The notes under the pieces: model-generated | The model's input: the letters and a program-made list of their open reading frames with translations, nothing else | Database searches by the model: none | What the model was told of the DNA's origin: nothing | From: Branchiostoma floridae | Lineage: Eukaryota; Chordata; Leptocardii; Amphioxiformes; Branchiostomatidae | Assembly (NCBI RefSeq): GCF_000003815.2 | Contig: NC_049986.1 | Location: forward strand, 12,717,876-12,781,875 | Reading direction: 5' to 3' | Length of the DNA: 64,000 nucleotides | In this document: piece after piece, positions 1,535 to 52,489 of the stretch | Numbering within the stretch: the first letter of the stretch is position 1 | How the letters are laid out: each line of letters starts with the position of its first letter | Translations under genes and position numbers: made by a program

Positions 1535-4500
1535 CCCTTAGTAAAAGATACCTAAAGTAGGCTGTTATAACTGTAGAAACGTAAATTCCTATCTCATTGA
1601 CATACTGGAATTGTATCCTGAGCTCGGCCCTGTGTCAGAGGACGCAGTTACTCCACTGTTCCTGGTCCAATCAAAGTCGTCGGTTTGGCGATCTTGTTGG
1701 TAGCCACAGATGCTCGCCTCAAAGTTACACTGGACTGGGTCTGGAAACAACAAGGTTGAACTATTAGATTAGTCATGGACATACGATGTTGTGTTAGCTA
1801 TAGACGCACAAGGGGAGTGGGAGGGAGGGAGACAGAGAGATACAAGAAAGATAGAAAGTGTGAAATACGACGTCAGTCATATGTATATATGTATATCGGG
1901 CACATCTACGGACATGTTTGGTCATCGACACTTTAGTGTAAGTTGCCTTTTTTGTTCTACAGAATTATTAACAGATTATGTAAGGTCCTGTTCAAATTCA
2001 GACAGACTACACTGGCTATTATAGGGCTAGGGAGAAGAATTTGCCTGAGAAGTTTTGCTACCAGAGGAGTTGGTCGGCCGTGCAGGAACCTAAGCGTGGA
2101 CTGACTCCCCTGGCCAATTTCCCGATTTTTTTCTCCAAATTCTACGATTCCCGCACGCCCGTAGGAAGGCCTAGTGGAGGCTTACCGTAACAGATGACGT
2201 CCTGTCCCGACCACGTGCCGTCCGCCTGGCAGGTCCTGGAGGACGAGCCCTGGTGGAAGCCGTGCAGGCAGGTGAACTGGATCACCGTGCCGTACATCGT
2301 GCCGCTCCCGATGATTTTCCCAAACGCTGGCCGCGACAACTCAGGACAGTGCACAACTATTCAGACAAAACGTAGTGAGAAATGATGCGGTAAGCATAGT
2401 CTTATACATAAAACCACTTTGCAGCAAAGTGTTTTTTATCGATAGAGAAAGATCCCGCCAAACTATCTGGTTTAACAGTTGTTAGATACGGTATCCTAAT
2501 GTTCCGTTACAAAGTCGTGAAATAAACCGATACACACTGCGCCATACCCCCCCCCCCCAACACACACAGACATACTAAGTACCCATCCATGCACATTAGT
2601 ATGTCAGAAACTGTAAAGCTGTCGGCCTCAAAAGAAACATGGGCCCATAAAATAGACGAAGTTGGCACGTGAAGTAGATTAAGTGAACGTATACATCATG
2701 GCACATGTCATATCATAAGTATATAGAAATAAGTATTGTACTTTCAGATTTCATCTACAGACACAGAGGAAAATGAAACTTGAGATGCAATTTCTTTCTC
2801 TAAATACCTTCACACGTGGTATCGTTTCCACTCCAGATCCCATCTTTGGTGCACGTCCTCTGACTGGACCCGGTCAGCTCGTACCCGACGTCACACGAGA
2901 AGCTGTAGGTACAGCCGTACGTGGTGCATGTGGAACTGGCGGTGCCGTGGTCAGGCGTGGGGAGGGGCAGACAGTCTTTGACTGGATGGATGAGAGAACA
3001 TAGATGGAGGGCGATACTTCTGTAGACGTTAATTCTCCTAAACATCGTTTTGCTAATTTTTGGTCACATAGATAAGACACTTAATAAAAATATTACCAGG
3101 ACAAGATCCATGAAGATGGCTGTTGTAACAAAATCATACAAGATGAACATTATAAAACAAATAATGATAATAATGCCCAGAACAATAATCATAGATAGTA
3201 ATATTCTAGTTATTTCCAGTACGTCGTCTTTATGAGTTCACACCAACTTTTACATGTATCAAACAGATATGGATGTACAGGTCTTTCCAGAAGGTCCCTT
3301 ACTCTGACAGGTAGGTTCTGCAGAAGACCAGCCGCTCGCCGTGCAGGTGGCGCTGTCCTGTCCGATCAGGTCGTACCCTTGGTCACAGTTGTAGAACACG
3401 GTGGCACCGGTCAAAGTGCTCGAGAACGTGTTGCCCCCGTGAAAGGATAGTGCGGGGGTCGCGCAGTCTGCAGCTGTGTGGTATTAAAGAACGGAAAGTA
3501 TATGTTTAAAAATCTATCGGCTATTGATTATGGCATAGGTCCCAATTAGAAAAAGCGGCCCTGCCAGGCATTTCACGGGCTGTTCTTTTGGCATTTTCAG
3601 GCCCCATGTGACACTTTGCGGATCCCGGGATATTTTGGGGCCCGGCCGGGAACAGGGTTGAATTTAAGTCAGACTTACGATGCGCCTGGGACCCGGTAAC
3701 AAATGGTCCCTGACTTACCCGTGGGGAACACCCCTCCGGTATCCACCGGGACAAATTCGTTTGTGGTTACGGAGCCCGGCCGGGGCTACATCTCTGACGG
3801 GCACCGGTGCAATTGGGACCTAAGCCTAACAGGTGCCGCGCGGTAGACATTGTGATCGATACAGAATTGCGCCCTTCAGGCGGGATCATCAGGAGCACCA
3901 CCATGGTCAGAAAGAAAGGTCAATCACCAGGCCCCAAAATACCTTGTACCAGTAAGACCGTATAGGTCTGGTCACCGAGATTGTAGTGGTGGGGATTTTT
4001 ACCGGCTAGCTAGTGAGGGGATCCAACCTCTGCTTGGAGAATAGTAAGACCGTACATTTGGCAGAGATAAACGTCATGTATGAAGCAAGAATTTTTTTGT
4101 TGATTTGTAACAACGCCTACTGTCTCATCAGTCATTGGGTACTACTGCATACTGTCCTTTTTGTGTAATGATTCTTGATATTGTTTAATTTTCAGAAATA
4201 TAGTTGATATTACGTCTTCCCAAAGCCCCACAAATCTAACCTAGGTGTCATGGCCTATTCTAGCAGGGAACTTGGCAGGAAAACGATGGACCGGGGTAAG
4301 AATAGTATGGACAGACTACGCAATCCTAGCATGGTTAATTCTGATGATAAAGTTCTGTGTCCCTTCTCGACGTGATGCGTTTCTTACCCCAGTACGACAT
4401 GTTGAATCCGCCCATCGAGAAGGACGCGTCCGACTGGAAGCGTACGAAGATCTCGTCCGCAGCCTCTGTCTTGAACACGTCTACAGGCATGTACTGTCCG

Positions 4501-7500
4501 GATAAGGTGAGCATCAACTTCCCTGATTCTGAGGACCCCTGCGAATGGATGAATAGAGTAATGATGAGCTTTGGAAGGCGGAAGAAGGAAGGAAGGGTTG
4601 TATTTTCATGACCTGTAAAGCTGAATATGAACGTGACCAAACATCCCACCTGAAAAATGTCGAGACCAATCTAATGTGCTTTACGTGTATATGTCAATTT
4701 TAAGTTCCTATGCGTTTCAAAGGCCAATACGCACATACACATAAACTTGTTGAAACAAGACCGAAAGCTCTGTTGTAATACCGCAGAAATCTACCAGGGT
4801 GCCCATATTCAAACTTGACCTTTATTTTGACAACATCTATATGATTTTGACATCATAAATTTAGATATCCTTAAACAGCATCTTGTGATGTGCTGCCTAC
4901 AAAAACAAGTTCACTGACAAACATACCCACAAATGGCACCGAAAATAAATCTCAGCCAAGGTAGAAAGAAGATCTGCATAGTTATACGTGCCTCATACAC
5001 AGTGAGGATGTCATAATTGTGTTCGGTATTGAAGACGTTGAACTTGAAGAGCACGATGTGGTTATCCCTCGGCTTGATGTGCCAGGTGCAGGTTTGGGAG
5101 TTCTCGTAGTTCCCGGGGAAGTTCGGGCTCAGCAGGACGCCTCTGTCGTGCGTCAGGAGCTGGTTATTACCGCAGATAACTGGTGAAAAATGCATTAATA
5201 GATAAGGAAAGTTTATGACTGTAGCGCTGCCGTTCACGACGAGTTCTTCCTTTCCTTCCAATTTTACACTCTGGTGATTGGTGAGTCTCTGTTTTCTTGA
5301 AAAAGACCAATAAAGTTAGTCCAAACCAGTGAATATCGGAGTCTCAGTCGCCATCATTCTCATGTCCTTAGGTCAACTTAAAGTACATGGTAGAGACATA
5401 GGGGGCTCACACGTGACAATGGACAAAGATAGACATTACTGTAAAAGAGAACACTCAAATACTAGTGTTGGTTACATGTATACAGACAGGTTGAGTATGC
5501 CTTCTTTGCTGGAAGTAGAGAAAGACAAAGAGCCCAACGTTTTCTACAATCTGCGACTTCTGTGATTTAAGAGAAAAGTGAGCTTCTGTTCGTCCGTGAA
5601 TATGAGAGAGTTGGGGAAGAACGTCATTGTGACTTCTTTAAACAATGTGGTTCTTTCGGTGTGGTCAAACGAGTAATTGGAAACATAATGCATTTCGTTT
5701 TCGACTGATTTAGATGTACAGTATCTAACTAGAGTTCGGGGACCTCATACCTCCATGAAATATTCATTGCTTTTTGTGGATGTTATGTATGTTGATGGTC
5801 GGTTGTATTTAAGAGTAATGGATATTACTGTTATGGGTATCTGCTTGGAGCAAAGCCCCATTAACAAACACTTAAAGCACGATGCCTGTTCCAATATATC
5901 GCAGATATAGGGGTGATTTTTGATATTATTACATCGATTATAACGACAGATACGGCGCCCAAAATCTCATCGATTCGAGCTTTCATTACACCTCACCAAC
6001 ACAACAAGTATGAAACCAACCCATCCAGCCATTCTTGAGTAATCTTGTATACAGACAGAGACACCCCCAAACAGCTGTCACCATCTGCTTGGAGCTAAGC
6101 CCATTAACAAACACATACAGCACGATGCCTGTACCAATATATCTCACATATAGGGGTGATTTCTGATATTATTACATCGATTATAACGACAGATACGGCG
6201 CCCCAAATCTCATCGATTCGAGCTTTCATCACACCCCACCAACACAACAAGTATGAAACCAATCCATCCAGCCGTTCTTGAGTAATCATCTACACAGACA
6301 GAGACACATAACAGAAAATATAACCTCCATTTCATGACATTTCATGGAGGTAATAAATGACATTCGTTTTACCCAATATTCCGGTTGAACAGTATAAAGT
6401 TGGCCCCTTACGTAGAGGTTAAAGAAACATGGACTGACTTTCACATGCCGGAGGTGTGATGAAGTCCCAGTGCCCCTGGGACTCGCAGGTGACCGTTTCG
6501 GACGGGTTGTTGAAGGTGTAACCGGGTTCGCAGGTGTACGTGGCGACTTCGGCATACGTCAGTCCCGTGTACGTCATCTCTCCGTGAGTCACAGGGGGCG
6601 GGACTTGGCACACAGTGGCTGCCAAATAAGGGCAATAGATGAGCTTTGGGGTTTATGAAAAAAATACAATCCTCCAACCAACATAGAAATTTTCGTCCTG
6701 GTCTTATTTAGGACCATATGGCCTTCCAGACGTTTGAGATAAGCCACGGCTAAAAGGTGGCTGGTAGTCGGTAGCAGCCCCCGTCCCAGTTCAATGATAC
6801 TTGAGCTTTATCTATGTGTCGTTTCCATGGGTCAAGAGGTATCATTTTAATTGTTTTTCTTTATATATCCTTTTTTCAATACTATATCTGAAAGTTACTG
6901 GAACATCCCCCCCTCAAATATGATTTCTATATTACTTCACAGTTCCTTCAAGAATGCATGCATTTACGCTATACATATGAACCTTCAAGAAACTTACTTA
7001 TGAGAAATGTGAATATTCTCTTATATCTGCATACTCTCATACCTCAGACTCTCATGCCCTATACTCTTATACTTCATACTTCTTATACTCTAATAACTTA
7101 TGATTAGAGTCCCATACCCTATACTCTTATACCTTATACTACTATGCCTTTTACCCTTATACGACGAAAGATCTCATACGTTGGCACGTGACGTTGCCTG
7201 CCTCCCAGGTTCCGTCTGCTGTGCAGTTCTTGGCGGGGGTTCCCACCAGCATGTAGCCGGCGTCACAGCTGAAGTACGCGGTGTCCATCGAGTACGTGAC
7301 GGTACCGTTTGTCAACACTAAGTCCGCACACTGGCGATCTGCATGTTTGAGAGCAAACGGATGAATGGATGAATGAATGAAGGAAGGAACGAATGTCTCG
7401 CCAAGGTAAGAGTAAAATCGGACCTGATGACCACTACTCCTACCAGGTAAGGCTAACATCGCATTTCCAAACCGGGGCCCGGCCGGGCAGTTTGTGGAAA

Positions 7501-24356: not shown

Positions 24357-27300
24357 TCAGAGGCGGGATTTTGTGACCTTCTCCGTCATGATGACCTTGA
24401 CGATCTCAGCGACCTCTCTCGCGCAGCCGTGAGACCACGTGACCCCGTTTGCTCCATGGCCATAGTTCAGCTGACGAAGAAATTCCAATAATAACTTTTC
24501 CTTGACATGAAAAAACCCAGTACTCTCCTTCTCCTGTATACCTCTGCTTCTATCCTATTCAGATTACGTCTATGTCATATGCTATTGCCATATAAAGATC
24601 CATTTACCGCAAAATGGTTCACAAAAACAAAAGATCAAAATCAAAATGAAAGTATGTTTGGCATCTCCGCTAACTTTGAAATTGCCACATTAACAAAATT
24701 GAACTGCCCTTTAGAAGTAGCCTATCAGTAAATACGTACCTCAAAAGAACGCCCAGATTTGGAATCTACCAGTGTTTCCCTTTCCAATCTTATTCCTCCT
24801 TTGCGCATGGGCCGCAAGCCAGTCCACTCCTCTACAACCTCTGCACCCTGAGATGTCGATAGAATTATGGTTGTTTTAGCCATCAACAGTTTCAACACAT
24901 TGGCACATATTTTAAAGGACATCAGATATACATTTGAAGCAGCAAGATGACGTAGAAGAACTGTGTACAGTAAGAACCAACTAACAAAATTAGGGTGAAT
25001 TTAGAATCGAAGTTAAATGCCTTACCTTCAGTTGCGGGTGCAAGGCGAGAACTCCCTCCCATATGGTCTTAGTGTCACGTGGGTCGTTCGTCACGCGGTA
25101 GTCCCCCTCCTGTTTTATCCCACCTATCACCACGTCATGAAGGCTGCGACAAAACATTGGAAAAAAAGACTTAAACCGATGACCTTGAAAAGTGCAGAAC
25201 CAGTTCCCGGTCTTAGACGTTCTCCTGTCGACATTAGCATGTCTTAAGTTAAATTCATTTTTCTTGCTGTTGAAGACTTTCAGGTTTATTGTGCGACACA
25301 TTGCATACTAGTAGTTAAGTTTCAATGCTTAGTAACTGACGAGGAACTCAACTCACTTGGCGTATATGTACGGATCACCCTTGATGGTTGGATGTGGTCC
25401 GGACGTTCCCACAAAGTACCGTATCCATGGAGCTTTAACCTGTGTGAAAGTACCGTATCCATGGAGCTTTAACCTGTGTGAAAGTACCGTATCCATGGAG
25501 CTTTAACCTGTGTGAAAGTACCGTATCCATGGAGCTTTAACCTGTGTGAAAGTACCGTATCCATGGAGCTTTAACCTGTGTGAAAGTACCGTATCCATGG
25601 AGCTTTAACCTGTGTGAAAGTACCGTATCCATGGAGCTTTAACCTGTGTGAAAGTACCGTATCCATGGAGCTTTAACCTGTGTGAAAGTACCGTATCCAT
25701 GGAGCTTTAATCTGTTTGAACCAGCTTTAACTGCTATGGTATGAATCTTACGGTTGGTGTCTAACCTAAAAACGTCTTAAGGGCCACATCTATCGGGGTA
25801 TCTGTCATTTTACTAAGCGCGATGTATTCCTTAGAACGGAAAGTGACTTTACTAACCCGCATGACTTGTCCTCTGACAGGAACCACAGCCTTGTCTTGAA
25901 CAAGAGATCGGGCTTCCAGGCCGGTGCAGTTCACAATCACATCGTAGTGTGGAGCTAACTTAGAATGAAAAAAATATGATGAGGCGTTAAAATATGGTCA
26001 TTATACCCAGAGCACCGATGAAAACAAATTGTCCTATCCTATAGCAATTGTAATATTCAGCAACTCGATCACGTTCTAATTCAGAGTTATTCATTACATT
26101 CGACTTGCAAGAGATAGGTTTCCTGTTTTCGTTGTACGCAGGTTAGAGATACAATAGACGAAAACGAGTAGGTAAATCAAACATACTTCCTCCAGTGATC
26201 CGACTCTTCTCCTCACGAATCCGACCCCTTTCTCTGCTAACCTGAATTGACAACCAAAAGTCCATCTGATTTCACCAGCGTCTTTTTCGGATGAAGAATC
26301 AATTTTGAAAATGATTATAAACGATCGAAATTCTGTGGTTGGACCGTTGGAAAGACATCACGAAATACAAGATGACCTTAGTCTTCTAGAAAGATCCATA
26401 GAATTGTTACTTTGTATGAGCCCAAGGAAGAAAGTCTCTCGGTTGACAAATGAACGCTGTGTAGAACCAGCCGTGTCTGAAATACAGGAAATAGAGTTAC
26501 GTACACACTACTTGAACGGAAGTAAAAGAATTGTTTGCTGTCTTACAATAGGAGACAAAGGAGGCTTCGATTTGATTGAAACCTTATTGACCAAACATTA
26601 CTTAGGAACACGAAGATGCTAAGTAATTTATAGCTGCACGAGCAGTTACTTAGTATGTACAATGTATAGAGAAAAGCTGTACATGTAAAGCTCCAAGGGT
26701 GTAAAACAAAATTTCTTGTTGTAGAAACATTTTCCATCCACCTACTTGTATCCAGGAAACAGGTTGTTTAGTTCCCAAGCTGTCAGGTGACGGAAACCAA
26801 CAACAATGTCCTTCCATGCAGGATCCTAGGAAAGAGACGATGAAGCAAATCGACTTTCATCTTTCAAATGAGGTACTTGTAGCATATAACAACCCTTACG
26901 TAATACTAACTCTTTGATTTTTAGCATGTAGGTAAAGATTATAAATCTTTGTCGAATCATGAGTACGATTTTGTCAAAAGAGTAACAGTACTTATTTCTA
27001 CTGCTGTAAAAGAACTGCTACTTCCTTTTCTAGTAAATGCATGTAAGTTCGCGGGGATTTGCTTTCGCGGTAGTGGGAAAATGGATTGTTCGCGGTGGTT
27101 TTGAGTTCGCGGTAGCTCCATAGACTGCAGTCTCATAATGTAATGGAAAATTGCTCGCGGTGGGTTTGAATTCGTGGTGAATTGGTCACCGCGAACATCT
27201 CTGCTTTTATAGCATTTCAACCCACCGGTACGTGTTCCATGAAGACGTAGTAACCAGGCTGCAGGAAGATGCCGAGTTCGTGTGCATAGTCCGTCTTCAG

Positions 27301-27931
27301 CATGGAGGTCAGATAGTCAAACGACCACTTCAGCCATCTCCTGAAGAAATCACGAACATTGAGGTATAAAAATAGCGTCCACTAGTGAAAAAAATGAGAT
27401 AGAACCCCTCTATCACATTAATTCACTAGTAAGAAAAAAATTGTGTCTACTAGTGAAAAACCCGTACCCTTCTATTGCATTAATTCACTAGAAATAGGTG
27501 AAAAAATACCGTCCACGAGTGAAAAAATACGATAGCACCTCTCTATCATATTGATTCACCAGTGAGAGGGAAGATGTGATCTAAATGAACTGGTGAAATA
27601 ATGCGATACCATAAATTGTGACAACTATTATCACGTGTAAGTAAATTTAGTTAACACGGTTTTCGACTGAAAAGCTTTTTTGAAGTAAAGTAATGTGATA
27701 ACTAGACAGTACTTCAAAGTCAGCTTGCAATACTCACAATTCAGCTGCAGTCATGTGTTCCTGAGACGGAGGTTTCCAGATCCCCCCGGCACCGTAACTC
27801 GTGTTGTCCGGACAGAACTTCTCAGAGATGACGGTCAGGTCTATTTGTCTGCGCGCATGTGCAGCCTCTTCCATGATGCGGAGGGCAGAGGTCATACCCA
27901 CAATTCCCGCTCCAATCACGGCGACTTTCAT
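24357..27931 (-). CDS. D-amino-acid / D-aspartate oxidase-like flavoenzyme, peroxisomal (320 aa)
   Basis: Nine exons: 27738-27931, 27232-27340, 26746-26825, 26187-26241, 25857-25958, 25357-25439, 25026-25143, 24740-24847, 24357-24470 (963 nt). The protein should oxidise D-amino acids to 2-oxo acids, ammonia and H2O2 with FAD. Visible signs: an N-terminal FAD-binding GAGIVG loop directly after the start; VIVNCTGLEA in the second FAD segment; RGQVMRVKAPW; GDPYIYA, holding the likely active-site Tyr; VVIGGIKQEGD; GLRPMRKGGIRLE, with the substrate-binding Arg; and NYGHGANGVTWSHGCA near the end. It ends in SRL, a peroxisomal PTS1-type tripeptide. KQEGD resembles D-aspartate oxidases slightly more than D-amino-acid oxidases, but I would not choose. 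About two dozen residues usual between GYK and LAEKG are absent. The 25357-25439 exon is preceded by a minisatellite that duplicates its acceptor. Confidence 0.9.
25414..25721. repeat. 34-bp minisatellite, nine copies, containing a splice acceptor
   Basis: Nine head-to-tail copies of a 34-bp unit, eight essentially identical and the outermost (near 25689-25721) diverged. Read on the minus strand each unit holds the intron end CACACAG followed by the first 26 bases of the oxidase exon (GTTAAAGCTCC...). The copy at 25414-25447 is continuous with the real exon; the other eight lie in the intron. Near-identity suggests recent expansion or ongoing homogenisation. Confidence 0.95.
27035..27217. mobile_element. 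MITE family B, copy 1 (oxidase intron)
   Basis: Rich in TTCGCGG and CACCGCGAA in both orientations. Its start (AAATGCATGTAAGTTCGCGG) matches, reversed, the end of the copy at 36950-37142. Confidence 0.6.
27378..27565. repeat. Three tandem foldback units with CACTAGTGAA / TTCACTAGT
   Basis: Units of about 55 bp, each a short inverted repeat (ACTAGTGAAAAA ... TTAATTCACTAGT), at about 27378-27431, 27450-27493 and 27508-27565, in the first intron of the oxidase gene. Confidence 0.7.
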
Positions 27932-39300: not shown

Positions 39301-42300
39301 AAATGGCATTAGATTTAGCATAGTGTGCCAGCAAAATTTGTCCCTAATACTACAGAAAATGGCATTTCAGAGGGTGCAGATTTTGAAATTTCCCCAGACC
39401 AACCTTGCGACAGCTCGCACCTTCGGTACTCGAAATCACGAAAATATTTTGGGGGCATCGCCCTCGCTATTTAAAACCATGTGTCTTTCTTACAGAATTG
39501 CCATCAAATTTAGCTTAGTCTGGCAGCAAAATTTGCCCGTCAAAACGCAGGAAATGGCGTTTTAGAGGGTCAAGATTTCAAATTTTCCCGGGGGAGCATG
39601 TCCCCGGTCCCCCCTAGGATTGTCGCGCGCGCTACATGTGCTGCAAAATCCTGTCAGTAAAGTTCGCCCCCCCCCCCCCCAGACGAAATTTGCTGCTGCC
39701 GCCTCTGGTATCCAGTATTTGATTATACTGCTGCTGGGATCCCTGACACAGGGGTAGGCAACAGTCGGCTAGTCTACAGAAGATAGGAATGGAAATTCAA
39801 GTTAGAGAGAAAGTTCTTTTTCTTGGTTAATAAAAATGTGCTTTAGTGTTGTACTGTCAAGTCAATACCCAGAAATGTGGACATAAACCCTTAGTATGAA
39901 TCTATGATGCTATCATATCCCCACACTTCTTTTCTGGGCACTCTGATATACTTAGAAGCACAACCCACAGGTTATATTAACCTTTTACCAACTGCCTACA
40001 CTAGTAACCAATGCAGGTTTGTTGCCAAAGGCTATCTTAGCAGGTGAAGGTTCATAAAATAAAGAGAGAAATCCCACCTCTGGACAGCATGGAGCCGATG
40101 AGAACAGTAGCGATGACACTTCCCGCCTGGAAACCAATGGACATTCCTCCCAGAACCTTCCCATAATCCTGCTTGTCAAACCATGCTGACAGCAGCTTGG
40201 TGATCGCTGGCCAGATCGCCTGATGAAAGGGGGAAGACTTGAGCTTTGTGGGGGGTCTTGGTGTGTGTGGGGGGTATGGCAAAGACAGAAGAAAGAAGAG
40301 CTTTTTGGATAAAGAAGACGGTAAAGATCGAACAAGGCAGAGCTTTTTGACATAAGAAAGATAAAGAGAAGAGAAATTCAAAACAAGGTAGATGGAAGAA
40401 ATATGAAGTAATTTATAACAGGTGGTTGTTCATGTTGAGAAGTTGTTGCTCAAACTGAAGTGTGCAATACAATAAAGCAGAAATAGTGGGGGAATAGGAT
40501 AGTCAAGCCTGATGATACATACTAAACAACAGTATATCATACTAAATGACTGTTAACTACAAATTACGATTGAAAATGGCACTAGAAAGGCCGACATTTG
40601 CTTGAGAGCAAATACAGCATATTTCAGCCATCTCCCTCATGCAACAATAGGCCTTGAGGTCGTTGACCCCTTAGGCCATTGGAAAATGACCCAAAAATTT
40701 CCCAAATATATCATTTTAAATTGTTCCATGCCAAAAATTATAAATGGGTCATTTGAATAAATATCTAGAGCACCCCTTTACCAAATTTCGGGTCATTTGG
40801 TTGTAAAACGAGGGAACAGGAGCCAAAAATGTCCAATTTTTGTCAAAAAATGGCCATAAAATCGCAATATTGAGCATTATGTTGTACTGTATGGAAAAAC
40901 TATTATTGATTTCATGTGCACATAATTGAAGGGCACTTTTATACCAAATTTCAGGTCATTCGGTTGTAAAACGAGGGTACAGGAGGCAAAAATGTGCTTT
41001 TTTTGTCAAAAAATGGCCAAAAATTGCAAAATTAAGCATTTTGTTGTACCATATGCCAAAAGTGTTATTAAATCTGGGTGTGCATATGATCAGGGCACCT
41101 TTGTACCAAATTTCATGTCATTCGGCTGTAATACCAGGGTACAGGAGCCCAAAATATACATAAAAATTGACAAAAACCTCAATAAAATCATTTTAAAGGC
41201 AGATATGAAAAAAATGAAAAAAACGCCCGAGGGTATTGGCCCACTCTACCCTTGTGCCAAATTTCAAGTCAATCGGTTCAGGAACAACGGAGATACCGTG
41301 TTCCGAAGATTTGACAGGAGAAAGAAACATTACGAATACTAGAAAGGCCGACATTTGCTTAGGAGCAAATACAGCATATTGCAATCCATCTTCATCCTTG
41401 AAAAAATCCCCAAATTCAACAATTTGAAGTCATGTTTGCTCAATGGGAAAATGAAGTACTGTGGGCACTTGTCCTACACACCTTCATGCCGAATTCTAGG
41501 TCATTTGGTTTCAATATAAGGGCATAGGAGCCAAAAATATACATTTTTTAGTTAAAAATGGCAAAAAATCCCAAAATGACTCATTTTATAAGTGCGCTAT
41601 GAAGAAAGTGTTGATGGGATCCTGTTGTCATATGTCCAATTTACCTTTCTGCCAAATTTCAGGTGATTTGGTTTACATACAAGGGCAAAGAAGCCAAAAA
41701 TATACATTTTTAGTCAAAAATGGCTGAAAACCCCAAAATAACTAATTTTTGAAGTCATCTATGAAGAAAGTGTCAATGGGGTCCTGTGAGCATATGTTCA
41801 ATGCACCTCTGTACCAAATTTCAGGTCATTAGGTTTTCATACAAGGGTATAGGAGCCAAAAATATACATTTTTTGTCAAAAATGGCCAAAAAGCCTAAAA
41901 TAACTCATTTTTGGAGTAAACAATGAATAAAGCGTTGATGAAGTTCTGTGGTCATATGTCAAACGCACCTATGTACCAAATTTCATGTCATTTGGTTTTA
42001 ATACAAGGGCATAGGAGCCAAAAATATAAATTTTTAGTCAAAAATGGCCAAAAACCCTAAAATAACTCATTTTTTAAGCGATCTATGAAGAAAGTGTTGA
42101 TGGTTTTCTGTGCTCATATGTTTAATGCACCTCTGTACCAAATTTCAGGTCATTAGCATGTAATACCAGGGCACAGGGGCCCAAAATATACATATTTTAT
42201 CTAAAAATGACCAAAAACCCTAAATATCATAAATTCTAAGGCCTCTATCAAGAAAGTGAAAAAAACGCCTGGGGGTATTTGCTACTTCTACCACCCTGCC

Positions 42301-45300
42301 AAATTTCAGCTCATTTGGCCCAAAAATGAAAAAGTTGAATCCATTTGAAGATTTGACAGGAGGAGAACGAAAGGAAAAACAATATATTGCAATCCCATAC
42401 TATGTATGGATTGCAATATAACAATATATTTCACCATACCTATGGTATGGCTGAAATATAAATATCATGTGATACATGTATCTACAGCAAATCACAGACA
42501 GACAAACTGACACAAGAAAATGGCCAATCCATATCAGTGGGGATGTAAAGTGAGATCATTCTATCCCCAAAATCTTCAGTATAATCATCCCATGTATTAA
42601 ACTGTTGCTGACACCGCCCTCTCAATTCAGGAATACTCATCAAACAAGTGAAATAATACAGCACTCAACAAACTTACAGTGAAAAGCTTCAGTAGCATGT
42701 AGGAACCAATCAGCATGGAGGCGGTAAACACCCTGGCGTAGGCTATGGCAAAGAACGCCACTAGCAGCAGAGACACAGTCAGAACTCGCGTCCCTCCGAA
42801 CGACTCTGAGGCCACCCCGCAGAGGATTTTGCCCAGGATGAATGCACCATTCCCACAGGCCAGCATAGTTCCTGCTGTACGCTGTAACAGATAACATTAC
42901 ATATCTACTTTAGTACTGTTTAATACTGTTTTTTTTTTTTTTTGGCTAATTTTTTTATTCTCTTTTTTGCTTGCTCGCATCAGTTTTGGGGTTCCCAGAT
43001 GATGATCCATATATTCAAATCAACGTGGTCTAAGTTGACTACTTTTAGTGAACAAATATTTCTGTCTGTAATTATTATTATAATTTTTATGTTTGGTTGA
43101 AACTGTAAGGCAAAAGATTAATTGAGATTATCAAAATGTTGGGTTAACTTTACAACTGTGCATTGAAATTTTGCCTTAACTTCTACGGTACAAAAGAGAC
43201 ATCTATTGACTGTTTTCAGAAAGACAGGTGGCATCAGGAGTAATTTAAATACCTGAATATTATGGTCGTCTTTGTGAATAAAGCCATTTTATGAATAATG
43301 GTTTTGTTTATGAATATCAGTAAACTATTCTGGTTCTACGGTGTGGGGGGCATACACCTAGAGGCAAACATGCCTAGTTTCAAAGGTTGGATGCCACGTT
43401 ATTCATAAGTGCACTATTGCCCTATGGTCATGGTATACTGGATCGCATATGACAGAGGTCTCAGAANNNNNNNNNNNNNNNNNNNNNNNNNNNNNNNNNN
43501 NNNNNNNNNNNNNNNNNNNNNNNNNNNNNNNNNNNNNNNNNNNNNNNNNNNNNNNNNNNNNNNNNNCCCAAAAGTAGTTCGGGTTCAAATAGTGCACCGC
43601 TGTACTTGCAAAGGCCGTAGTTATTCTTCCGTGCACAACAGCGAGGTGGAAACTGTGGTGAATGGTAGAGGAACATATCGGTGTTGATACGGTATAAGTT
43701 GGATTACGTTGCTTCTTCGGCCAGCGGGAATTTGCGCCTTGATACTGTTACCGGCACTTCCTGTTCGTCGCCTGCAGTTCCATGACCTCCGCTGGGGGTC
43801 AAATCAAAGTGTCTTTTATAGAAAAACGAGCAGGCAAATCTATGCTCATTTTCAGATATTTTGTAGGTAGTACCCTCGACTTCAACATACTAAATTCTTG
43901 TAAATTGTATCTGCACCTTTCTATAGGGTTTGAGTCGTCGAACCACCTCACTTTGGGGTCCTTAACCATGTAAATCCCCATAGGCGAAAAACTGTGTTCT
44001 GAGACCTTGAACCACAGCGTGAATTCCCCAGGGATGGGTAACAGCATTGAATTTGACTGACATGTTAGGAATTGACGTTGGCTGACTTGATCTGTAACAT
44101 TTTTGTTACCGTCAGACCCGCCGTTACCATGGCAACGGCCGCCAAGACCGCTCCCTATGCTTAAGTATAGGACTTAGTATGGTCCAAAGCCCGCTCGATT
44201 CCCCCCCCCCCCCTTTCCGCCCTAAAAAAGGCTACCCCCCTACCCCAATCACCCAGAACGGTAGAATATGGTCTGGCAAGCACCTTGTAGCAGAAAAAGT
44301 CAACCAGAATATTACATTTGTTGAGATAATAACACCAATTAGCGGCCCCTCAGATAGTCCTTGTACAGGGCCGACACCTGTGCTAGGCGCCGAAGTGCAA
44401 AGTTGGCCATATCTCAGGAACCATTTGGATTTATGCTCTAAAACTTGGTACGGTTTTATATCTTGACTAGTTTTATTGTATGAATGAAAAGAAATCCAAG
44501 GTCAAGTTGGTTCAAGGTCTCAGAACACAGTATTTATACGCGACCCCCGTCCCCAAAAGTAGTTCGGGTTCAAATAGTGCACCGCTGTACTTGCAAAGGC
44601 CGTAGTTATTCTTCCGTGCACAACAGCGAGGTGGAAACTGTGGTGAATGGTAGAGGAACATATCGGTGTTGATACGGTATAAGTTGGATTACGTTGCTTC
44701 TTCGGCCAGCGGGAATTTGCGCCTTGATACTGTTACCGGCACTTCCTGTTCGTCGCCTGCAGTTCCATGACCTCCGCTGGGGGTCAAATCAAAGTGTCTT
44801 TTATAGAAAAACGAGCAGGCAAATCTATGCTCATTTTCAGATATTTTGTAGGTAGTACCCTCGACTTCAACATACTAAATTCTTGTAAATTGTATCTGCA
44901 CCTTTCTATAGGGTTTGAGTCGTCGAACCACCTCACTTTGGGGTCCTTAACCATGTAAATCCCCATAGGCGAAAAACTGTGTTCTGAGACCTTAAATCGA
45001 AGACCGGTCATATGCCTCGTATGCATTTCGAATTGGCATTATGTAGACATCTTTTAAAGGTTTGTTACACAGTTATGATTGACTTCATTGAAAAAAGAAA
45101 GACAGGTCCCTTTGTGGATATCGGACTCACCTTGTCGAACTGGATTGTTTTGTCCTGCATCATGGCGGGCATAACAGCTTCCGTTGCCGTGCGGCAGAAG
45201 ACGCTCCCCCAGTATCCTAGGAACAGCCCGAGAAAGGCAAGCCACTGCCAGCGACGCTTCGACATCGCAGAAACAATCTGGGTCTTCGTTGAAGTCGACG

Positions 45301-49309: not shown

Positions 49310-52264
49310 TTACTTCCAGTTGAGTCTGCTGTGTAGGTCTTGGACACTGGATCGTCGCTTCATTTGTAGGATGACCCTGGCAGCTCGATTTTGAAGAACC
49401 TGAAGTTGTCGCTGCTTGGTGATGTTACAATTTTCCCAAACAATGTCGCAATACTCAAGTAGTGGTAGAATCATGCATCTGTATAACATACTTGCAATGT
49501 TGACAGTGAGACATGATCTTAAGCGTCTTAGCAAACCTATTCTCTGTGATACCTTGGAACATACCATGTCAATGTGTTCGTTCCATGAGATATTGCAGTC
49601 AAGGAGAACACCTAGGTATTTGAATTGGTACACTTGTTCAACTGTTTCCTGATCAATTTGGAGTCTAAGTGGAGGTACTGCTCTTAGCTTCCCACTACTA
49701 CCGAATAGAATCCACTTAGTCTTAGCGACATTCAGTGTAAGACGATTTGAATGTAGCCATGTGGCAAGGTTTGCTAGTTCAGAGTTTAAGGTGTTCTCTA
49801 TGACTCTAGCGTCCTTGCTGGAACAGAAAATAGCAGTATCATCTGCATACAGACATACTTTACATACAGTAGAGACTGATGACGGTAAGTCGTTTATGTA
49901 CAGAATGAACAGTAGGGGGCCCAGAATAGAGCCCTGGGGTACCCCTAATGTAACTGGTAGGAAGTCGGATTCACAGCCATTTAGACTAACAGTTTGTTCT
50001 CTTCCAGCCAAGTAATCAGTGAACCAGTGATGCTCAACCCCATGTACACCAACCCAGGACAGTTTCTGTAGTAAGACATTCTGATCCACGGTGTCAAATG
50101 CCTTTTTCAGATCTAAGAAAACGGCCCCCACGAGTTTACCACTCGATATGTTGTGTAACATGTAATCTGTGGCATCAATAAGGGTTGTGGCTGTAGAATG
50201 TCCAGGTCTGAAACCTGACTGTTGGGTAGCAAGAATCTGGTGTTGGTGCAGATATTCTAAGAACTGCCCATGTACTTCCTTTTCAAATGCTTTCATAATC
50301 ACTGGTAACACTGAAATGGGTCTGTAGTTGTTTGGGTCATCTTGATCCCCCCCTTTGTGTATAGGTGTGACCCTGGCCCTTTTCCATTCTTTTGGAATGT
50401 GACCTGAGGAGAGGGACATGTTAAATATGTGAGTGACAGGTTTACAGATACAGGGAGCTGCAGCTTTCAATAGTCTTGAATGAATATGATCAAGACCTGT
50501 TGCCTTGTTGTTGCTCAATGTACTGAGTTTGTTAAACACAGAGTCATCATTAACCTGTTTGAATTGAAAGGTGGATGAGATCTGTCTGTACACTGTGGGG
50601 CACTGTAGGGTCAGTGTCTGTTGTGTGAACCTCTCTGCAAGCTTCCTGCCAACTGTAACAAAGAAGTTGTTAAAACAGTTTGCTATGCTGAGTGGATCAC
50701 AGAGATGTTGTCCTGCCCAGTTGAGAGTCTTTGTAATAACAGAGCTCTTTCTGGGTAAGATTTCCTTAACTGCTGTCCATATTCGGTTTGGTTCTGACGA
50801 GCAGTTTTCCAGCTTGTGTTGGCAGTAGTTGGCCTTTGCCTGCTTAACTAGTCTGTTTACTTTGTTCCGTGTGGCCCTGTAACCCTCCCAGTCTGTGCTG
50901 TCCCCAGTCTTCCGAGCCCTAGCTTTCATCTTGTCCCTTTCAAACATCATTTTCTTTATGTCTGCTGAGAGCCAGGGGGGCTGCATAGCTTTAGAGCGCT
51001 TGGAGATATAGGGAGCATGAATGTCACTAATGGTGATAAAGAAGGACTTAAATATTGACCATGCTTCTTCTACACAGGTAGCCTGGTAAACCGGGCTCCA
51101 ATCAAGAGCCTTAAGGTCAGTGAGAAAGTCCTCTTCTTGGAACTTTGTAAACTTGCGTGAGGTTACATACTTAGGGGCTGAGTTTGGGCGTTTACCCTTT
51201 CTAATACAGTACACTGCATAGTGATCGGAGAGGGTACAATTAACTACCCCATAGTCATTAACTCTATGTATGTCACTGCAGTAGACATGGTCTATAAGAC
51301 TACTCGAATGTTGGTTTACTCTAGTAGGTGTATTAATTACCTGCTGTAGTTGGAACTCACGGCTTAGGTATTTTAGAGACTTAGCACCTGGACTACTGTT
51401 TGAGTTAATGTCAACATTGAAATCGCCCAGAAGAAACAGTTCGGAGTCTGACTTGGTCAGACTCCATTTCTCAAGAGCATCCCTCAACAAGGAGAAAAAC
51501 TCCACAGGGCTTGATGGTGGTCTGTATATAGAAGCAATGGTGATGGGTTTAGTGTAAGGTATGTTTACTGTGCAGAAAACTGCCTCCAGGCCAGGCTGTT
51601 TTAGCTCAGGTACTTCTGTATGGCTGTAAGCCTCTGACACATATATGGCAACCCCACCCCCGTGTCTGTTCCTGTCATTTCTGTACAGGTGATAGCCCTC
51701 TATATGTAGCTCTGAGTCCAGGATCGTACTGTCCAGGTGGGTTTCACTAACCGTCATAACATCAACATTATTGGAAGACATAAATACATACAATTGATCC
51801 AACTTGCTATACAGACTACAGATATTGAGATGTACAATGGTTAGGCCCTTTGATGGAGGTATCTTATCAGTACTTTCCAAGATTTCTTCGTCATTCACAA
51901 TATCAGAGACGCTACTAGAAGTACTATTGTCATTGCTTGAAGAATCAAAAAATGAATCACTAAAGCAAGGAAGCATACAGGGGTTACAATACCAATACTG
52001 ATCTGAGTTCGCTAGGGTGAAGTATTCATGGGTATCCATACCCGTGCAATTTATATGAAACCACTTATCACATAAGTCGCAGCATATTCCCTTCTGATTC
52101 TTCCGCACACACTTATTACATATGCCACATGGGTCCTTAGGCCCAGGGTTGACTGCAACATCGCCAGACAAAATTAGCAAAGTGTGGAAACAGAGATGTA
52201 CACAGTTTACTGAAGTCGAAGTCACAGCATTTGAGGTGTTCTTTTCCCTGACATTTCCACCCAA
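49310..52264 (-). CDS. LINE polyprotein: 2A-like motif, PHD finger, endonuclease, reverse transcriptase
   Basis: About 984 codons from a TTG (no ATG is in frame at this end). Order by rough residue: a hydrophobic stretch then DVAVNPGP (35-42), a 2A-like motif; a Cys/His-rich PHD finger (46-97) ending WYCNPC; an apurinic-type endonuclease from about 141 (HLNICSL, SETHL, GDFNVDINS near 280, SDHYAVY); a reverse transcriptase with FLDLKKAFD (about 717), GVPQGSILGP and catalytic YADD (about 806). Known LINEs use these two enzymes for target-primed reverse transcription. All visible catalytic motifs are intact. The frame ends prematurely after LNWK, and the expected C-terminus continues in another frame at 49283-49014, so this copy is probably inactive or recently broken. 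Confidence 0.9.
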   Translation of the reverse strand: MGGNVREKNTSNAVTSTSVNCVHLCFHTLLILSGDVAVNPGPKDPCGICNKCVRKNQKGICCDLCDKWFHINCTGMDTHEYFTLANSDQYWYCNPCMLPCFSDSFFDSSSNDNSTSSSVSDIVNDEEILESTDKIPPSKGLTIVHLNICSLYSKLDQLYVFMSSNNVDVMTVSETHLDSTILDSELHIEGYHLYRNDRNRHGGGVAIYVSEAYSHTEVPELKQPGLEAVFCTVNIPYTKPITIASIYRPPSSPVEFFSLLRDALEKWSLTKSDSELFLLGDFNVDINSNSSPGAKSLKYLSREFQLQQVINTPTRVNQHSSSLIDHVYCSDIHRVNDYGVVNCTLSDHYAVYCIRKGKRPNSAPKYVTSRKFTKFQEEDFLTDLKALDWSPVYQATCVEEAWSIFKSFFITISDIHAPYISKRSKAMQPPWLSADIKKMMFERDKMKARARKTGDSTDWEGYRATRNKVNRLVKQAKANYCQHKLENCSSEPNRIWTAVKEILPRKSSVITKTLNWAGQHLCDPLSIANCFNNFFVTVGRKLAERFTQQTLTLQCPTVYRQISSTFQFKQVNDDSVFNKLSTLSNNKATGLDHIHSRLLKAAAPCICKPVTHIFNMSLSSGHIPKEWKRARVTPIHKGGDQDDPNNYRPISVLPVIMKAFEKEVHGQFLEYLHQHQILATQQSGFRPGHSTATTLIDATDYMLHNISSGKLVGAVFLDLKKAFDTVDQNVLLQKLSWVGVHGVEHHWFTDYLAGREQTVSLNGCESDFLPVTLGVPQGSILGPLLFILYINDLPSSVSTVCKVCLYADDTAIFCSSKDARVIENTLNSELANLATWLHSNRLTLNVAKTKWILFGSSGKLRAVPPLRLQIDQETVEQVYQFKYLGVLLDCNISWNEHIDMVCSKVSQRIGLLRRLRSCLTVNIASMLYRCMILPLLEYCDIVWENCNITKQRQLQVLQNRAARVILQMKRRSSVQDLHSRLNWK

Positions 52265-52489
52265 TGGGAATAGCAGAGTACAAGTGTGGTGACTTAGTGT
52301 GACGGCACTGAAGTAGGTACAGTTGACATGGCCAGACAGTTTGTATACAGTGGAATTAGACTGAGACCAGTGACATGGCTCATGTTGATTACAGGATATG
52401 CAAACTGAAGTATGACTATGGCAAATGTTGCCAAATTCACGTACATGGATTTGGCCATCTTTGTGCAGAGAATGATATTACTATGCTAA

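Follow-up and report, generated by a model that had tools for sequence, protein, structure and literature searches.

Results

The window analysed here is a stretch of 64,000 nucleotides from Branchiostoma floridae. Its minus strand carries a D-amino-acid-oxidase-like gene (DAO), the coding part of which spans positions 24357 to 27931. Exon ends were set at GT-AG sites that keep the frame open. The resulting gene model has ten exons, namely, exons 1–5 at 27931–27738, 27340–27226, 26825–26746, 26476–26411 and 26241–26187, followed by exons 6–10 at 25958–25857, 25439–25357, 25143–25026, 24847–24740 and 24470–24357. All nine introns are of the GT-AG type and the exons join to a single open frame of 344 aa that ends with SRL and the stop codon TGA. 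The C-terminal SRL is presumably a peroxisomal signal. The Pfam domain DAO was matched in two of the four frames scanned, in one of them above the curated cut-off, and residues 1–339 of the protein align with residues 1–338 of the solved D-amino-acid oxidase 2du8 (E 9.6e-85). The match to the D-aspartate oxidase 6rkf was weaker (E 1.8e-57). The Pfam match and the alignment to 2du8 thus bear out the original prediction, made from the sequence alone, that the host gene encodes an oxidase.

Intron 6 (25440–25856, minus strand) comprises 417 nt, begins with the donor CGG/GTTAGT at 25856 and contains 30 AG dinucleotides. It is followed by exon 7 (25357–25439, minus strand; 83 nt), the first 27 bases of which are the innermost copy of a tandem array, with the productive AG at 25441–25440. 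The array had been assigned to the junction of exons 5 and 6; the gene model moves it to the end of intron 6, at the junction of exons 6 and 7. The proposed exon start at 25439 itself is correct, since the introns are GT-AG throughout, the reading frame stays open over 344 aa and the exon 6/exon 7 junction is passed without a gap in the alignment to 2du8.

Elsewhere in the window, an open frame of 1055 aa on the minus strand (49313–52477) resembles a retrotransposon protein by eye. A run of 100 N at 43467–43566 is probably an assembly gap. At 40779–42224, TRF reported a pair of arrays with a unit length of 162 bp, one of 2.3 copies and one of 4.5, separated by about 0.3 kb.

Anatomy of the array

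The 34-bp minisatellite extends over 25413–25720 with 9.1 copies (TRF period 34, 99% match). With a TRF score of 602, chance is no concern. In minus-strand orientation, the unit consists of GTTAAAGCTCCATGGATACGGTACTTT (27 exon bases) and CACACAG (7 intron bases), and not of 26 exon bases plus eight others as first described. Unit-by-unit comparison showed 34/34 identity in seven full units and 33/34 in the outermost one. The innermost copy continues into the true exon 7 of the DAO gene. Upstream of it, seven unit copies (25440–25677, minus strand) place exon-7-like starts at 25473, 25507, 25541, 25575, 25609, 25643 and 25677, each preceded by an identical CACACAG. Together with the start at 25439, eight of the nine unit acceptors are therefore identical to the letter (CACACAG/GTTAAAG). 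The ninth acceptor, in the outermost unit (25678–25712, minus strand; exon start 25711), has diverged to CAAACAG/ATTAAAG. A minisatellite that multiplies a splice acceptor was accordingly confirmed by the TRF array and the unit table, while the expected nine near-identical acceptors came down to eight identical ones and a diverged one. Just outside the array (25713–25732, minus strand; start 25730) stands a tenth acceptor look-alike, CATAGCAG/TTAAAGC, which is perhaps a decayed older unit or a product of chance. The possibility that the array is itself coding sequence was rejected, as stop codons interrupt the repeat in each of its six reading frames.

A query of 381 bases covering the array yielded a single match in its own genome, an assembly of 513,431,437 bases in 431 contigs, in a search that skips very common words. 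With one genome match in total, this query returned no second array allele in the unplaced contigs of the one assembly searched.

Boundary arrays in other amphioxus genes

Tandem repeats over amphioxus exon-intron boundaries have been described before. They were named 'mirages' in Adh3 (PMC3087553; Canestro et al. 2002, as cited in PMC3902484), where the units measure 10–72 bp, and mirage copy number differs between haplotypes (PMC3087553). The globin gene BflGb6 has 150–160-bp units, of which its two haplotypes carry 6 and 3 (PMC3087553), and PGBD5 and troponin C (TnC) are further amphioxus cases (PMC3902484). The DAO array shares three features of this class, namely, repeats of minisatellite size, the boundary of an intact gene within the unit and a location in a cephalochordate genome.

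A globin search of the same genome gave nine exon matches, and one locus, L010, contained an array of 158 bp × 4.2 over an exon start. Three of its four acceptors are duplicates that lie upstream, and its units have diverged; the array matches the 150–160-bp BflGb6 mirage and its three-repeat haplotype (PMC3087553). A search for the GFP family, intended as a species marker, gave no hit, and its controls gave none. The search with ADH gave 23 matches. Among solved structures, locus L042 (G000:C6:27453342-27456566) is closest to class III ADH (1m6h, E 2.9e-36) and has an acceptor-side array of 59 bp × 6.9 at positions 1122–1526 as well as a donor-side array of 33 bp × 9.8 at 1712–2035 (AAAATCAG/GTGAGA). 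Such a pair of arrays flanking the exon is expected of Adh3. A sorbitol-dehydrogenase-like locus, L059 (G000:C2:5230621-5233785, reverse strand), has an array of 143 bp × 3.8 over an intron-exon boundary at positions 1571–2125, with four acceptors, the innermost of which runs into the exon. It is closest to the ketose reductase 1e3j (E 3.3e-24) and the sorbitol dehydrogenase 1pl6 (E 1.8e-16).

Clear boundary arrays were thus found in four genes (the DAO gene of the window, L010, L042 and L059) against 117 exon matches from four families (71 + 9 + 23 + 14, several per gene; 118 cytochrome P450 matches stand outside this count). At the 14 aldehyde dehydrogenase loci, an array of 23 bp × 3.0 in L070 and one of 18 bp × 2.2 in L078 overlap exon matches by 11 and 5 bases, respectively. 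By eye, both looked like intron ends of the matches, and they were left out of the mirage count. In all four dissected acceptor-side arrays, it is the innermost copy that leads on into the remainder of the coding exon.

The DAO array shares with Adh3/L042 the boundary-spanning tandem repeats, with about 26 exon bases per 59-bp unit in the latter, and the continuation of the innermost copy into the exon. It differs in two ways: the intron end within the ADH units is still rich in pyrimidines, with acceptor scores of 4.6–6.1, while the DAO unit retains only 7 intron bases, and the donor side of the ADH exon carries another array. With BflGb6/L010 it has in common the duplicated 3' end of the intron and 5' end of the exon, the AG/GT junction and the innermost copy that leads into the exon; the 158-bp diverged units of L010, with a long intron part and 4 acceptors, set the two apart. 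The repeats of lancelet PGBD5 likewise overlap exon edges in the same lineage, but they are imperfect repeats of 60 and 108 bp (PMC3902484).

A further explanation is that the copy number or the perfect unit identity arose in assembly, upon a real but smaller duplication. The identity of seven of the eight full units could be read in this way, and an earlier genome draft mis-assembled the BflGb6 mirage (PMC3087553). Against this, an array of 308 bp is small next to the length of a long read, and a true array is favoured by the divergence of the outermost unit and by the correctly joined exon. The other mirages of this genome, whose units have diverged, also agree with what has been published. 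We consider such an artefact very improbable.

Among the listed matches from the open-licence literature, no paper was found on a mirage in amphioxus D-amino-acid oxidase. PMC2241627 treats NMDA in the nervous system of amphioxus, with a mention of D-aspartate oxidase. The DAO array is a new example of an amphioxus class that is already described.

Paralogs and origin of the array

A protein search of the same genome gave 51 DAO exon matches. Seven paralogous genes (L031–L037) were fetched and the junction was read in six of them (L031–L036). In comparison with L031, 87, 54 and 159 changes were counted at codon positions 1, 2 and 3 in 325 codons. Third-position changes outnumber those at the first or second position in the comparison with five paralogs, as expected of a gene that is kept for its protein.

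All six paralogs read have the intron at the same position, before VKAPW or its equivalent, and exon 7 starts with GT in each of them, so that the GT is older than the array. An array across the exon 7 boundary was found in none of L031–L036, L033 being readable only for the last 15 intron bases with N beyond. In L035, a tetranucleotide run lies just upstream of the acceptor and stops short of the boundary. Since the paralogs read have no array across the junction, the array is probably new in this gene. Outside the array, the flanking sequence closes with GGTTCAAACAG, which may be the decayed ancestral acceptor.

Four of the paralogs, L031–L034, lie together (G000:C9:8409000-8475000), first a pair on the minus strand and then a pair on the plus strand, and two of the four have identical first-exon scores. 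An inverted duplication or merged haplotypes are possible reasons for this layout. The chromosome-9 paralog L033 also contains arrays of 34 bp × 2.0 and 256 bp × 3.6 (4040–5007), away from the matched exon edges.

Coding consequences of acceptor choice

Ten model mRNAs were built, one for each of the nine unit acceptors and one for the look-alike at 25730. The protein was kept only with the innermost acceptor (exon start 25439), whereas the nine other acceptors led to a stop after 7–12 codons. The eight mRNAs from outer acceptors of the array read (V/I)KAPWIRYFHTG before the stop, and the one from the look-alike stopped after 7 codons. Use of the acceptors between 25473 and 25677 adds 34–238 nt and a stop codon in each case. 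Lengthened by one or two units, exon 7 would measure 117 or 151 nt. The prediction of a single productive acceptor, the one closest to the body of the exon, therefore held in the gene model.

Strength of the splice sites

Splice sites were scored with human base frequencies, which rank amphioxus sites only roughly. On this scale, the eight identical acceptors scored 1.53 each, the acceptor at 25711 scored −2.25 and the look-alike at 25730 scored −2.43. Being identical in letters and score, the eight acceptors offer nothing in themselves that favours the innermost one. The working acceptor has pyrimidines at 9 of 16 positions, the fewest among the nine DAO acceptors (10–14 in the others), and its score is the second lowest in the gene by the same human frequencies, with only the exon 6 acceptor below it (0.65). 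Some leakage or inefficiency is therefore plausible.

Each unit closes with TTCAC, a possible branch site, followed by AGs at +5 and +12 and by the acceptor of the next unit at +39. AGs that lie no more than about 12–15 nt from a branch point can be skipped (PMC1431707), which suits this spacing of the two AGs and the acceptor. The motif is weak evidence, because it is missing from the search zone in four of the nine DAO introns; in intron 6, the zone holds a copy at 5 nt only, and the copy at 39 nt lies just outside. RNA structure that hides the outer acceptors was not supported by folding, with 51 of 100 arrays of shuffled units equally or more stable.

The equal scores along the array, together with the stop reached from all nine other modelled acceptors, would suit a role in dosage. 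The outer acceptors would then be used often, the transcripts with early stops would decay and longer arrays would give less enzyme. Published mirages do vary in copy number, as with the 6 and 3 units of the BflGb6 haplotypes (PMC3087553). Strong tuning is argued against by the reports that mirages leave splicing undisturbed: the mirage data suggest no disturbance of regular splicing (PMC3087553), and the Adh3, TnC and globin mirages are reported neither to disturb it nor to produce aberrant mRNAs (PMC3087553, PMC3902484), though decayed products could have been missed in that work. Tuning by copy number is in our view unlikely, if the least improbable of the alternatives considered.

Possible splicing in two steps

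A recursive (zero-length-exon) splice site consists of an acceptor that is followed at once by a good donor, approximately CAG/GTRAGT. Recursive splicing with a strong donor was rejected for the array, where CAG/GTTAAA scored −1.27 as a donor (83rd percentile of the GTs in the window) and CGG/GTTAAA, as rebuilt after joining to exon 6, scored −3.25 (67.7th percentile) by the human frequencies.

Splicing of the array might also be self-correcting. As the exon starts with GT, splicing to an outer acceptor would create a fresh GT donor where the exons join, and a second splice to the innermost acceptor would remove the surplus units. The boundary CACAG/GTTAAAG does read AG/GT, and the exon of the working copy starts with GT in all four dissected arrays (DAO, class III ADH, globin and sorbitol-dehydrogenase-like). 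A precedent is seen in the potato RdRp gene, where exon sequence at a duplicated boundary serves as a newly gained donor (PMC4974935). There, too, the duplication crosses an intron-exon boundary and supplies an acceptor and a potential donor; the outcome differs in being a new intron confirmed by RNA reads, while the DAO frame needs none.

Several results speak against such re-splicing. The rebuilt donor is poor in comparison with the true donor, which scored 2.53 (97.3rd percentile) with the same frequencies. Exon starts with GT are common, with two of nine in the DAO gene and, by an automatic placement that is doubtful in some cases, 17 of 55 acceptors of the DAO paralogs (11 of 49 without exon 7). 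The GT of exon 7 predates the array, given its presence in 6/6 paralogs read. It has also been lost in some outer units, the outermost DAO unit having AT, the outermost L059 unit GC and one of seven ADH units GC. Finally, the pattern was noticed post hoc in four arrays that include the starting case. Re-splicing in the DAO gene therefore appears most doubtful. The broader idea that acceptor-side mirages persist only at exons starting with GT, where AG/GT lets the spliceosome re-splice its mistakes to the innermost acceptor, is scarcely more probable.

Discussion

It is likely that the DAO array is an amphioxus mirage that arose by tandem duplication across the intron 6/exon 7 boundary, is intronic and consists of equal acceptor modules, of which the innermost wins while mistakes decay. 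The minisatellite would have been born in one DAO gene and would be removed together with intron 6, and the ancestral pyrimidine tract would have been left upstream of the array. As the unit contains only 7 intronic bases, the signals upstream of the working acceptor would come from copied exon. They would now consist of TACTTTCACACAG and of TTCAC, a possible branch site 39 nt upstream of the acceptor, within the preceding unit. Because these signals lie in the copied exon and the preceding unit, the units may be regarded as local acceptor modules of equal standing. The branch point more likely lies within the array, since scanning from a branch point upstream of it would meet many AGs first.

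With equal modules, the innermost acceptor would win by exon definition, being the sole one joined to the full exon with a donor 83 nt away. Classical work on duplicated 3' splice sites points in the same direction, as the length of exon joined to a site reportedly decided the choice. Exon definition might not be enough by itself, since exons of 117 and 151 nt are of ordinary size. Transcripts from outer acceptors would reach their stop no later than codon 217, with three further junctions well downstream, and nonsense-mediated decay would probably clear them. On this explanation of the array as a mirage, no regulatory role is needed.

As mirages turned up in a small survey of gene families, a whole-genome census could test the intron-gain model and the idea that AG/GT boundaries sustain them. 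If that idea were true, AG/GT-based mirages would be naturally evolved self-erasing arrays and a standing stock for new introns. The DAO array adds a clean case for the choice of 3' splice sites, with eight identical acceptors in a row and one of them productive, and it is a natural experiment in which the pyrimidine tract has been replaced by copied exon.
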